Shown here in pieces: positions 54,787 to 58,569 of a stretch of DNA of 64,000 nt (the stretch's first letter is position 1; each line of letters opens with the position of its first letter). Below the pieces are notes generated by a model, which ran no database searches, was not told where the DNA came from, and was given only the letters and a program-made list of their open reading frames with translations. Origin of the DNA: an uncultured Armatimonadota bacterium (lineage in GTDB: Bacteria; Armatimonadota; Fimbriimonadia; Fimbriimonadales; Fimbriimonadaceae). Both the position numbers and the translations under genes were made by a program. The stretch is from contig CAIYLG010000029.1 of NCBI GenBank assembly GCA_903927025.1, positions 1 through 64,000 on the forward strand. Direction: 5' to 3'.

Positions 54787-55413
54787 ATGCTAGATCAAGC
54801 GCTGATGATTGCCGCCTTTTTGGTGGCGAGTTCTGCTCCTCAAAGGGCACGGCTCTCGACGTTTTACGCCTACGAACCTACCCAAGTCCCCTCCCCAGCC
54901 ATGTTGTCCGTGCAAGAGAAGCGACCGCCCAACGGCACCAAGCCTGGTGTGATCAATGGCGGGCACCCCGTGGCCAAGCCCGGTCAGTCGCCTTCATACG
55001 TGAATATAAGCGGAAATTTTGGCGGAGTGTTTTACGTTTCTGGAATCGGCGGCGCTACGAGCCAAACCCAAACCAGCCAGGTGAGCGTTATCACCAATCG
55101 GTCATTGACCTTGGCTGCCACAAGCTTTCGGCCGCTAACCTCGGCGCAAAATCCTAACCCGGAGATGGGAACGATCTCCTACACCATGGCGATCTACTCG
55201 GGTACTCCGAGTCAAATGGGCGCACTTGTGGCGGGACCCGTGTCTGGCACTGACGCTGGATTTAATGGCCAAACTCTTTCAATCACCGTGCCAGAACAGC
55301 AGGCCAACGAGAACTTTGTTCTCGTAATTACCAGGACGCTGTACGTAAACCCTTCGGCTACAGGGCAGTGCACGCTCGTCGGGACAGGAAATATTAGTGT
55401 TGCCATCAATTAA
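54787..55413 (+). CDS. Secreted subunit-like beta-sandwich protein, unrecognised family
   Basis: The 208-residue protein has a hydrophobic N-terminus (about 1-20), a Pro-rich linker (to about 70) and one domain of alternating strands (VNISGNFGGVFYVSG, QVSVITNRSLTLAATSF, ISYTMAIYSGTP, NENFVLVITRTLYVNPS). The pattern of short strands rich in Thr/Ser, and a final strand NISVAIN, recalls fimbrial or spore-coat-U-type subunits, but I cannot match a family. It is the first of three genes; the next encodes an Ig-like protein and the third a secretin. One Cys (in TGQCTLVG) is present. Function inferred only from context. Confidence 0.55.
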   Translation: MLDQALMIAAFLVASSAPQRARLSTFYAYEPTQVPSPAMLSVQEKRPPNGTKPGVINGGHPVAKPGQSPSYVNISGNFGGVFYVSGIGGATSQTQTSQVSVITNRSLTLAATSFRPLTSAQNPNPEMGTISYTMAIYSGTPSQMGALVAGPVSGTDAGFNGQTLSITVPEQQANENFVLVITRTLYVNPSATGQCTLVGTGNISVAIN

Positions 55414-55432
55414 AGAAAGCCTCGTGCACGGA

Positions 55433-56998
55433 ATGCGCGGCGTCGTGCGGTGCCTGCTTGCGGCCGCCTGCCTCGCCACTGCCGCACAGGCGCAAACTGA
55501 GTCGTCGGGTCTTCGCGGGATGGCGATCAACCCAATCATGTACCGCGTCGGTGGGCATGTGGGATCGCCACTGAACCTGCCAATTGAGGTTCAGAACCTC
55601 GAAATGAGACCGCTGAAGATCACACTCAAGCTTCGATCGGTGGCCTACAGCGATTGGTCTTACGGAGCCAATCTGGATGCTAAGAATTCGCACGACTGCT
55701 CGTCTTGGTTTGGCACGACGACCTTCACCACCACGATTGATAAGACTTCAACCTATCGTTTCCCTCTAAAGTGCGTGATTCCTAAGGTGGATCCGGGCGT
55801 TTATTATTGCCTCGGAACCATTGATCCAAACATTGTTGGGGACACCAGCGTTATCATCGCTGAGTACCAGATTCCGATCATCGTCTTTGTCGGGATGCAG
55901 CCCAAATTGGACCTCAAGTTTGGGACGCCCAATCTCACAGTCACAGACAAACTCTCCGGAATCGACGTGCCGTTCATCAATGATAGCGACGCCTTTACGG
56001 TTGTTGGAGCCGCCGTCCAGCTGCGAGATTCCGTTACCGGAAGGAGCATTGCGATCCGATCAGATTCGGATCGCAATCTGTACCCTCAATCTAAGCGGTT
56101 GATCCACTTTGCGGTTCCAAAGCTGTCTGATGGGCAGTATCGAATTGACTGCACCTGCCAATCTGGAACCCGCAGCTTCCGCCCAATTGTTGCCCAATAT
56201 GTGGTGAACAAGGGCAAGGTCGCCCTGAGCACTCCTGACTCCGTGATCTCCCTTCCTCCTTTCACGGTGGACCCGCCCCGATTGCGGCAAAGCATGCCGG
56301 CGGGAGCTCAGCGCTTGGTAACCATCAAGTTCACCAACCAGACAGATGCACCGCTGACGATCAACTTGACTCCGCATCGGCTAACCCAGTCAGCCAACGG
56401 CTTGCTTCAGGTAACCGATGATCCGCCAACCGCTCCGCTTACAGTAACCCTCAATCCGAACACCCTCACGATTCCTGCCCGAAGAACCAGCACTCTGCGA
56501 GTGACACTGGCTGTCGATGGAACCGCTGTTGGAGACAATTGGTTTGCGATCACTGCCCTAAGCGCGGATGGTGCATCCATGTCCGAAGAGGTTTACGGAA
56601 GCATCAATATTCCGAACACTGGAAGTCCAAAGCTGGGCATCGTTCCCAAGGAGACCGGCTTTGTTGGGGACGTCCCGCTGAGTATCGACTACGAAGTGAC
56701 CAACAACGGCAACATCGCACTGTTGCCCAAGATTTCCGCATCGGTGATGGAAGGTGGACTTACTCCCGTCGCAAGACTCGAAGTTCCACTTTTGGGCGAC
56801 GGCGGCATTCTGCCGGGCGCAACATTACGAAACCGGTTGATGCTTCCTCCAGATTTGAAGGCAGGCGCGTACACCGTAAGACTTGAATATCAGTACGGAG
56901 AAGCTTTGAGTGAAATCAAGCAGCTCCCATTCATCGTTCCAGCTCCGAAGAAGAAGGCAACGGCAGGCACGAAACCAAAACGAGGAGGCAAACGTTGA
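55433..56998 (+). CDS. Secreted multi-Ig-like protein with chaperone-like domains
   Basis: From ATG 55433 the protein has 521 residues with a good signal peptide (CLLAAACLATAAQAQ). In-frame TTG 55397 and GTG 55424 are alternatives. It shows four beta-sandwich repeats. Each has a segment like INPIMYRVGG...LPIEVQNLEMRPL or FTVDPPRLRQSM...VTIKFTNQTDAPL, and TLNPNTLTIPARRTSTLRV resembles the edge strands of PapD-type and DUF916/COG1470 proteins. The C-terminus is basic (KKKATAGTKPKRGGKR), fitting contact with a membrane or surface. Its stop overlaps the secretin start as TTGA. Confidence 0.6.
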   Translation: MRGVVRCLLAAACLATAAQAQTESSGLRGMAINPIMYRVGGHVGSPLNLPIEVQNLEMRPLKITLKLRSVAYSDWSYGANLDAKNSHDCSSWFGTTTFTTTIDKTSTYRFPLKCVIPKVDPGVYYCLGTIDPNIVGDTSVIIAEYQIPIIVFVGMQPKLDLKFGTPNLTVTDKLSGIDVPFINDSDAFTVVGAAVQLRDSVTGRSIAIRSDSDRNLYPQSKRLIHFAVPKLSDGQYRIDCTCQSGTRSFRPIVAQYVVNKGKVALSTPDSVISLPPFTVDPPRLRQSMPAGAQRLVTIKFTNQTDAPLTINLTPHRLTQSANGLLQVTDDPPTAPLTVTLNPNTLTIPARRTSTLRVTLAVDGTAVGDNWFAITALSADGASMSEEVYGSINIPNTGSPKLGIVPKETGFVGDVPLSIDYEVTNNGNIALLPKISASVMEGGLTPVARLEVPLLGDGGILPGATLRNRLMLPPDLKAGAYTVRLEYQYGEALSEIKQLPFIVPAPKKKATAGTKPKRGGKR

Positions 56999-58569
56999 TC
57001 CAAATGAAATATCGTGCATTTGCGGCCGTCGCGATTGTCAGTGGAGTTTCCCTGACGCCGGCTGCTCCGTTAACCAGACATTCGCTGACGTCATCCATGA
57101 TTTCGGCGGCGATGGCCAAATTCCATGGCGTCAAAGACCCTAGCCACGGCTCTTTCCGCATGGTTGCCACGGCGGTTCAGGTTCCAGCTCAAAACAAGTC
57201 AGGTGACCCAAAACCCGCCGATCCGAAGACCTCGGATCAGGGGCCTATCACGGCAGATGTCACTCCGTTAAAGCCGGCGCAAGAGCCGATTAAAGCGGAT
57301 GTCAAGCCTGTAAAGCAGGGAGATCAGGGCGCTGTTCAGGCAACCGTCACCCCGGCTGTCAAGGCTCCTCCGGCTCCAACAAAAGTTGCTGAAGCCAAGG
57401 TCCCAGACGCGAAGCCAGCAGAAGAAAAGCCGGCCCCCAAATCGGCGGACCAAAAGACTCCTGCAGCCACTCCCGTCAAGGGTGCTCCAACGAACGGCTT
57501 AGTCTCCAACGTTTTCGTCGATGCGGAAATTCGGTCCGTGATCAACGACGTCTCGAGTCTTGCCGGAGTCACGATCATTGGCGACGACACGATCAAAGAG
57601 CAGACCGTTACCATCGAGTTCAAGAACGAACCCATCGATTCGGTCGTTGAAAAGCTTGCCTTGATCACGGGTGCTTACTCAAAGCAACAGTCTCCTGGCG
57701 TGTACATAATCAGCAAGGCGACGGTGGAGTCCGCATTCTTCCAGAAGTTCGCGGAAACTCGAATCTACAGCGTCCAAAACCAAACAGCCGCGTCGATTCA
57801 GGCCCTGTTGAACGCGTCCTATAAGCCATATCTCTCCGTTGACCCCAAGACGAACACGATTGGAGTCTGTGCTCCAAAGCAACTGGCAGACAAGATTCTC
57901 GCTGACATCCAAAAGGCCGATAGGCCGGGTCGACAAATCTATGTGGAAGCCCTAGTTACGGAAATCAGCGCTGAGGATGGACTCAACACGTCGTTCAACG
58001 GTTCGCACGGAAAGTGGTCCCTCGGCGCAAACCTGGGCATCATCACTCAAGCGGCTGGGTTTGCGGATCTTGCTCAGATCAACGCGTTGATCACCGATCA
58101 TAAAATGAAGCTGCGCGCCAATCCGCACCTCATCGCGACAGCGGGACTGGAATCCACAGTGAACGTTGGGCAAGATACTTACTACAGCATTCTCAGCGGA
58201 AGCACCATCTATCCAACCAGCCAGATTCAGCTCATCCACACCGGCGTTGTCCTCAAGTTCACCGCCACAATTGGAGACGACGGACTCATCACGATGCAGC
58301 TCGCACCTAGCGTGAGCGATGCGGTTGTGAACGTGAATGGCAACCCGACGTCGAATATCCGCACCGCGGATACCCGAGTTCGAGTCAAGTCTGGCGAGAC
58401 GATCATGATTGCAGGCTTAACTCAGGAGACCGGAGACAAACAGGTTGTCCGCGTGCCGCTTCTTGGCTACATTCCGCTCGTGGGCGAACTGTTCACGCAG
58501 CGCAATACCACCAAGAAGAAGGTTGAGACGGTCTTCCTGATTACCCCTCGAATACTGGATCCAAAGTAG
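56995..58569 (+). CDS. Secretin-family outer-membrane pore protein
   Basis: The start is TTG 56995: AGGAGG lies six bases before it, while ATG 57004 would be 15 bases away. The 524-residue protein has an N-terminal signal, a Pro/Lys-rich linker with ADV-P repeats (about 65-165), an N0-type domain (170-240) and one N1/KH-like domain (255-308). The secretin core (315-522) contains IYVEALVTEIS, the VRVKSGETIMIAGL block and the terminal VPLLGYIPLVGELF and ETVFLITPRI motifs. Secretins form large outer-membrane gates for type II/III secretion, type IV pili or phage. No other pilus or secretion genes are nearby, which is odd. Confidence 0.9.
   Translation: MIQMKYRAFAAVAIVSGVSLTPAAPLTRHSLTSSMISAAMAKFHGVKDPSHGSFRMVATAVQVPAQNKSGDPKPADPKTSDQGPITADVTPLKPAQEPIKADVKPVKQGDQGAVQATVTPAVKAPPAPTKVAEAKVPDAKPAEEKPAPKSADQKTPAATPVKGAPTNGLVSNVFVDAEIRSVINDVSSLAGVTIIGDDTIKEQTVTIEFKNEPIDSVVEKLALITGAYSKQQSPGVYIISKATVESAFFQKFAETRIYSVQNQTAASIQALLNASYKPYLSVDPKTNTIGVCAPKQLADKILADIQKADRPGRQIYVEALVTEISAEDGLNTSFNGSHGKWSLGANLGIITQAAGFADLAQINALITDHKMKLRANPHLIATAGLESTVNVGQDTYYSILSGSTIYPTSQIQLIHTGVVLKFTATIGDDGLITMQLAPSVSDAVVNVNGNPTSNIRTADTRVRVKSGETIMIAGLTQETGDKQVVRVPLLGYIPLVGELFTQRNTTKKKVETVFLITPRILDPK

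Follow-up and report, generated by a model that had tools for sequence, protein, structure and literature searches.

How would a small secreted beta-sandwich protein cross the outer membrane of a diderm bacterium when the genes following its own encode a chaperone-like protein of immunoglobulin (Ig) fold and a secretin? The question is raised by three genes at positions 54787-58569 of a 64,000-nucleotide stretch (hereafter the window; positions 1 to 64,000 of contig CAIYLG010000029.1, assembly GCA_903927025.1) from an uncultured Fimbriimonadaceae bacterium of the phylum Armatimonadota. The window belongs to contig C29 of a 5.25-Mb Fimbriimonas-like genome, G000, in 66 contigs. From their conservation the three genes are near certain to constitute one functional unit, and the role that fits them best, which we consider on balance probable, is the export of subunits by an usher-less chaperone–secretin route.

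The three open reading frames (ORFs) lie on one strand in the order subunit, multi-Ig protein, secretin. A first-pass annotation, made by reading the window's ORFs, had described them as co-directional, with the TTG start of the secretin overlapping the preceding stop as TTGA, and this arrangement holds to the nucleotide; the same 4-nt overlap (spacing -3) is present in six related loci. The middle gene was counted from a GTG codon, and the in-frame ATG at 55433 is a likelier start, a clean signal peptide (MRGVVRCLLAAACLATAAQAQ) beginning there. The features of the locus are as follows.

54787..55413, + strand: subunit gene, 208 aa with a Sec signal peptide; homologues 5' of the Ig gene in genomes G018, G020, G021, G066 and G068
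54847..54978, + strand: extension at the N-terminus of the mature subunit, predicted to be disordered, with a conserved R-x-F-x-Y motif (TFYAY, 54859-54873); possible donor strand
54979..55410, + strand: beta-sandwich domain of the subunit in the AlphaFold2 model; domain end at most one residue from the last strand
55397..56998, + strand: WxLIP/PapD-like chaperone-type protein, 533 aa counted from the GTG
55508..56242, + strand: WxLIP/PapD-like two-domain unit 1, residues 38-282; profile A6 matches EfmWxLIP1 (E 1.8e-6)
56246..56944, + strand: WxLIP/PapD-like two-domain unit 2, residues 284-516, homologous to unit 1 and of WxLIP/chaperone fold
56945..56995, + strand: basic C-terminal tail of the middle protein (KKKATAGTKPKRGGKR), from the sequence; no transmembrane helix
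56995..58569, + strand: short secretin gene, 524 aa; TTG start overlapping the preceding stop; PF00263, E 7e-35
57514..57936, + strand: periplasmic N0/STN-like and N1 domains of the secretin, residues 174-314; weak PF21305, PF07660 and PF03958 matches
58084..58557, + strand: secretin core, residues 364-521 (PF00263), without a C-terminal S domain

Conservation of the gene set and the secretin clade

A survey of 291 Armatimonadota genomes finds Ig matches in 28, and 27 of the 29 large-Ig loci, in many families of the phylum, have a secretin gene downstream, usually within 1 kb and once at 2.8 kb. The other two comprise one locus at a contig edge and one followed by a non-secretin ORF and then the contig end; five weaker Ig matches are single-unit proteins of ~270-300 aa without a secretin. 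The complete subunit–Ig–secretin order is found in two Fimbriimonadaceae genera, with one or more subunit genes directly 5' of the Ig gene at 11 of 13 assessable loci of the family and three in tandem once (G018:C81). Because the Ig–secretin order is repeated at a paralogous locus on contig C66 of G000 and at many loci elsewhere, it is not due to chance. The first-pass annotation had named a lack of joint conservation in other genomes as refuting its proposal, and the genes are conserved together. The middle protein's named relatives all come from Armatimonadota, mostly from Fimbriimonas-like metagenome-assembled genomes, a pattern scan of GTDB contigs returned Fimbriimonadaceae only, and a plasmid search for spread beyond the phylum was negative. 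No usher (PF00577) is detectable in G000, with an E. coli control positive, and the one genome of the 291 with a PF00577 match over cut-off is a bin with 6% contamination.

Across the phylum, one to three small secreted proteins are usually encoded 5' of the Ig gene, and several of these beta-type proteins have a pilin-like last strand of the form G-x-Y-(x)n-T-x-T; the statistical link between the Fimbriimonadaceae subunits and the upstream proteins of other classes is not significant. The Ig–secretin pair is better conserved than any subunit family, and the upstream proteins vary between families of the phylum, as might be expected if the Ig protein helped to assemble the secretin or served as its periplasmic scaffold (compare PilP and the pilotins) and the secretin exported chiefly other proteins, with the small proteins encoded upstream as one cargo of several. 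We regard this as unlikely, given the strong fold match of the Ig protein to strand-donating chaperones and the recurrence upstream of secreted beta-type proteins, several with the G-x-Y-(x)n-T-x-T terminal strand; subunit variability is, moreover, generally known to be usual in chaperone-usher loci.

The window secretin is recognized by Pfam (PF00263, E 7e-35), with weak Secretin_N, GspD N0 and STN matches, and scores far below cut-off against the TIGR models for PilQ and GspD. It is one of seven secretins in G000. Judged by ORF content, the secretin on contig C8, a PilQ, adjoins PilM/N/O-like genes and aroK/aroB, and that on C10 lies within a cluster resembling a type II secretion system (T2SS). 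ATPases of the T2SS or type IV pilus (T4P) type (PF00437, T2SSE-type) are encoded on C38, C8, C10, C45 and C48, and no secretion ATPase on C29 or C66; the locus itself has no ATPase, inner-membrane platform or pilin genes of T4P or T2SS, in agreement with the first-pass observation that the window holds no other component of these systems.

With such systems present on C8, C10 and C38, the window secretin could serve one of them, its adjacency to the Ig gene being incidental, but this is highly improbable. Those systems have secretins of their own, the Ig–secretin pairing is phylum-wide, and a quickly built tree of 60 secretins, in which the reference branches are long, places every Ig-associated secretin, the window's included, within one supported clade of 26. 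Two clade members have no recorded Ig gene, of which L106 has an Ig fragment at the contig edge and L144 starts at contig base 1. Outside the clade are the PilQ, T2SS-like and large secretins of G000, GspD and HofQ of E. coli, and pIV of phage M13. The clustering with PilQ that the first-pass annotation had considered damaging to its proposal is not observed, the PilQ on C8 being excluded from the Ig-associated clade. A PilQ or T2SS role was considered for the window secretin and is rejected on the evidence of the tree and of the separate PilQ and T2SS-like secretins in the genome.

Several other arrangements were seen in the survey. Rows of three adjacent secretin-like genes (L143 14847-19899, L152 2086-6931, L155 2628-7400 and L162 3315-8263) are kept in several non-Fimbriimonadia Armatimonadota; the middle gene is very divergent, and they form their own branch of the secretin tree. 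At L052 2756-4274 (G021:C39) the secretin is split into two overlapping ORFs by a frameshift or an assembly error. Genome G018 has a fourth, divergent Ig-secretin pair (L161 1-1016, G018:C71) with two small secreted beta-type proteins encoded 5', one of which weakly matches DUF4402 (E 0.008). Loci L119, L120, L123 and L124 encode a single-unit PapD/WxLIP-like protein of about 270 aa, followed in L120, L123 and L124 by a protein of 760-925 aa with no Pfam usher match; two of the long proteins have CarboxypepD_reg-like domains near the C-terminus, and small secreted proteins are encoded upstream in some of these loci, which are possibly another chaperone-based export system or contain a very divergent usher.

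Folds of the Ig protein and the subunit

The middle protein consists of a WxLIP/PapD-type unit duplicated in tandem, with four domains in all. Its AlphaFold2 model (mean predicted local distance difference test score, pLDDT, of 82) is all-beta over residues 42-514 and readable as four sandwich domains, and units 1 and 2 are mutually homologous (hhalign E 2.1e-10). Pfam gives Ig matches only, all sub-threshold and WxLIP/DUF916 among them; a profile of the protein searched against the PDB finds WxLIP1 of E. faecium (EfmWxLIP1; E 2.5e-6), to which the N-terminal unit alone (profile A6) aligns over nearly its full length, through both domains (PGBD and HBD; E 1.8e-6). The C-terminal half (286-516) has WxLIP structures as its best fold matches (9i25_C, Z 18.1; 9i1y_A, Z 16.9), with the fimbrial chaperones CfaA (Z 13.8), CsuC (12.8), SfaE (12.6) and FimC (12.4) next; some unrelated long Ig chains also score Z ~13, though with root-mean-square deviations above 10 A. 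The PapD-type two-domain Ig chaperone is matched at the fold level alone, PapD_N of Pfam giving no match. The PapD/DUF916-like character proposed in the first-pass annotation is thus upheld for WxLIP in sequence and fold and for the fimbrial chaperones in fold, but the protein is not simply a PapD, since its nearest sequence relative is a Gram-positive WxLIP and it carries two such units in tandem.

The subunit belongs to no Pfam or NCBIfam family, and its profile matches no sequence in the PDB. In its AlphaFold2 model (mean pLDDT 68) the core is predicted at 80-94 and residues 7-65 are mostly disordered, with pLDDT below 50 at residues 7-47 and 53-65. Chaperone-usher pilins constitute 16 of its 20 best VIA structural matches (Z 8.8 to 7.5), including the PapGII pilin domain (Z 8.8), CfaE (8.5), FimG (8.3) and CsuA/B (7.9); the other four are the CanA cannulae of Pyrodictium and a tube protein. 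These models, each of a protein alone, bear out the beta-sandwich and multi-Ig descriptions first given to the two proteins. Within the disordered extension, Tyr29 is invariant in 16 of 16 subunits, one of six invariant residues, and column 27 is aromatic in all 16 (Phe in 15, Tyr in the window's own). The alternation of these conserved residues (F-x-Y) is the pattern expected of a donor strand and is counted in favour of strand donation, and the subunit is plausibly an incomplete Ig fold completed by a donated strand.

WxLIP has been proposed to complete the sandwich of its WxL partner by an inserted strand (PMC10599100). An alternative is a WxL-type surface complex in a diderm envelope, in which the WxLIP-like protein itself would leave via the secretin and stay with the subunit at the surface as an adhesive coat or anchor, a role proposed for WxLIP in Gram-positive bacteria, no fibre being polymerised. 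The nearest sequence relative, EfmWxLIP1, is a surface protein, several subunits are encoded per genome, and the basic tail of the Ig protein could bind an acidic surface polymer. That tail, noted in the first-pass annotation, is present in the sequence and in many, though not all, homologues; it is short, occupies the C-terminus in place of a transmembrane helix, of which the protein has none, and is not helical in the model. We hold a complex of this type to be improbable, if the strongest of the alternatives: the Ig protein lacks a transmembrane helix, is a tandem duplication, and is tightly coupled to a secretin gene and not to cell-wall anchors, and the window subunit has no W-x-L motif, its sequence containing no Trp at all. 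The Pfam WxL domain is not matched by any of the 16 subunits at E <= 10.

A paralogous locus and dispersed subunit genes

The paralogous locus on C66, with its Ig and secretin genes in the same order, is one of two Fimbriimonadaceae exceptions without an intact subunit upstream. A second type of subunit gene (type 2) is dispersed through G000, with 19 DNA matches, and since most of these are cut by contig ends the family probably numbers at least a dozen similar copies, at which the assembly breaks.

C2, C7, C10, C11, C12, C16, C18, C23, C26, C33, C49, C50, C52, C58, C59 and C66: type-2 subunit genes (loci L128-L142 and L170-L175)

Many of the type-2 genes have in common a leader of ~138 nt and a terminator, and the leader is also found 5' of the Ig gene on C66 (E 4e-9; alignment score 71, where shuffles reach at most 26). 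It is followed there by a decayed type-2 subunit remnant consisting of a start codon, a partial signal peptide and an early stop (L169, G000:C66:10440-10900). We conclude from the leader and remnant that a subunit gene formerly stood at the C66 machine too, and the leader common to its Ig gene and the dispersed genes ties those subunits to the machine. The dispersed family suggests that genes for an abundant surface protein undergo birth-and-death or gene conversion; one copy on C2 is internally deleted. The leader has no Rfam match and its predicted RNA fold is no better than that of shuffles. Upstream of the window locus there is neither a known RNA element (Rfam) nor a type-2 leader. A sigma-70 promoter scan gave no signal above chance.

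Stand-alone subunit genes also occur between the same two neighbours in four Fimbriimonas genomes (L062 7788-8453, G000:C45; L060, L061 and L063), twice in tandem. Genes for LuxR-type regulators lie beside type-2 and g28 Ig-secretin loci (L013 10861-12165, L053 10863-12269 and L055 10626-12242).

A possible export pathway

The gene set, signal peptides, predicted folds, conserved order, secretin clade, shared leader and absence of an usher are established computationally, and we propose the following pathway. The subunit, the WxLIP/PapD-like protein and the secretin would all reach the periplasm by Sec. There the WxLIP/PapD-like protein would lend a beta-strand to the incomplete beta-sandwich of the subunit, preventing aggregation, and bring it to the dedicated short outer-membrane secretin. 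At or beyond the secretin, the chaperone strand may be swapped for the N-terminal extension of the next subunit (the R-x-F-x-Y segment), and the released subunits would form a surface fibre or coat. As in chaperone-usher systems, no ATPase or inner-membrane platform would be required. Passage through the secretin is deduced from gene linkage, strand donation and polymerisation are inferred, and fibre formation would be a further step beyond export.

Several points weigh against this proposal. Known secretins operate with partner machinery, and WxLIP in Gram-positive bacteria is viewed as a protein of the cell surface rather than as a chaperone for export. The structures are predictions of single proteins and not of subunit-chaperone or chaperone-secretin complexes; the mean pLDDT of 68 gives the subunit model moderate confidence, and a Foldseek search with it yields no match below E 1e-3. 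Neither PapD_N of Pfam nor any pilin family is matched by the proteins of the locus. Arg50, considered as the equivalent of PapD Arg8, is conserved within the family alignment and not phylum-wide, and was dropped as a general argument. The first-pass proposal of a chaperone-usher-like pathway with a secretin in the usher's place is partly supported, by the pilin-like subunit fold, the chaperone-like fold, the conserved gene set and the lack of a detectable usher; the joint function we still infer.

With the chaperone-usher systems (type 1, P, CFA/I and archaic Csu pili) the locus has in common secreted subunits with a pilin-like predicted fold and an N-terminal extension, a periplasmic two-domain Ig chaperone type, an outer-membrane channel in the same operon and no ATPase. 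It differs in having a secretin for the usher, a tandem double chaperone unit closer to WxLIP in sequence, and no Pfam match to the PapD_N, pilin or usher families, and because the usher is missing we do not claim membership. The WxL/WxLIP (DUF916-DUF3324) clusters of Bacilli are similar in their Ig protein, homologous in sequence and fold, in their small beta-sandwich partner and in predicted strand insertion, but the locus has two WxLIP units per protein, a diderm host and a secretin as partner, and as it has neither WxL motifs nor the membrane helix, membership is again not claimed; the pathway would act as a blend of the two systems. The T4P and T2SS secretins (PilQ, GspD) have the same core and N0/N1-type domains, whereas the window secretin is short, lacks the S domain, belongs to a separate clade and is encoded at a locus with no genes for a pilin, an ATPase or an inner-membrane platform. 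In TasA/TapA fibres and CanA cannulae, too, beta-sandwich subunits are linked by donated strands, and the structural matches of the window subunit include CanA, but these have no secretin and belong to monoderm or archaeal envelopes.

The pairing of a periplasmic chaperone with a secretin instead of an usher appears not to have been described before; no earlier account of a chaperone-secretin system was found in searches of a library of open-access papers. To our knowledge, ushers are the only outer-membrane pores that assemble donor-strand pili, and we know of secretins only with multi-part, energy-driven or phage machines. We advance with less confidence the broader view that Armatimonadota have an undescribed pathway leading from a double WxLIP/PapD-type chaperone through donor-strand subunits and a dedicated secretin to a surface fibre. 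This would be a third route to pili across an outer membrane, alongside ushers and type IV pili, and in evolution would bridge the WxL complexes of Gram-positive and the chaperone-usher pili of Gram-negative bacteria. The reading makes clear predictions that can be tested, in a phylum that has received little study. If it is true, a strand-donating chaperone working with a secretin in a phylum nearly free of ushers would mean that the usher and secretin solutions are interchangeable, and would tie the Gram-positive WxL/WxLIP complexes to chaperone-usher pili.

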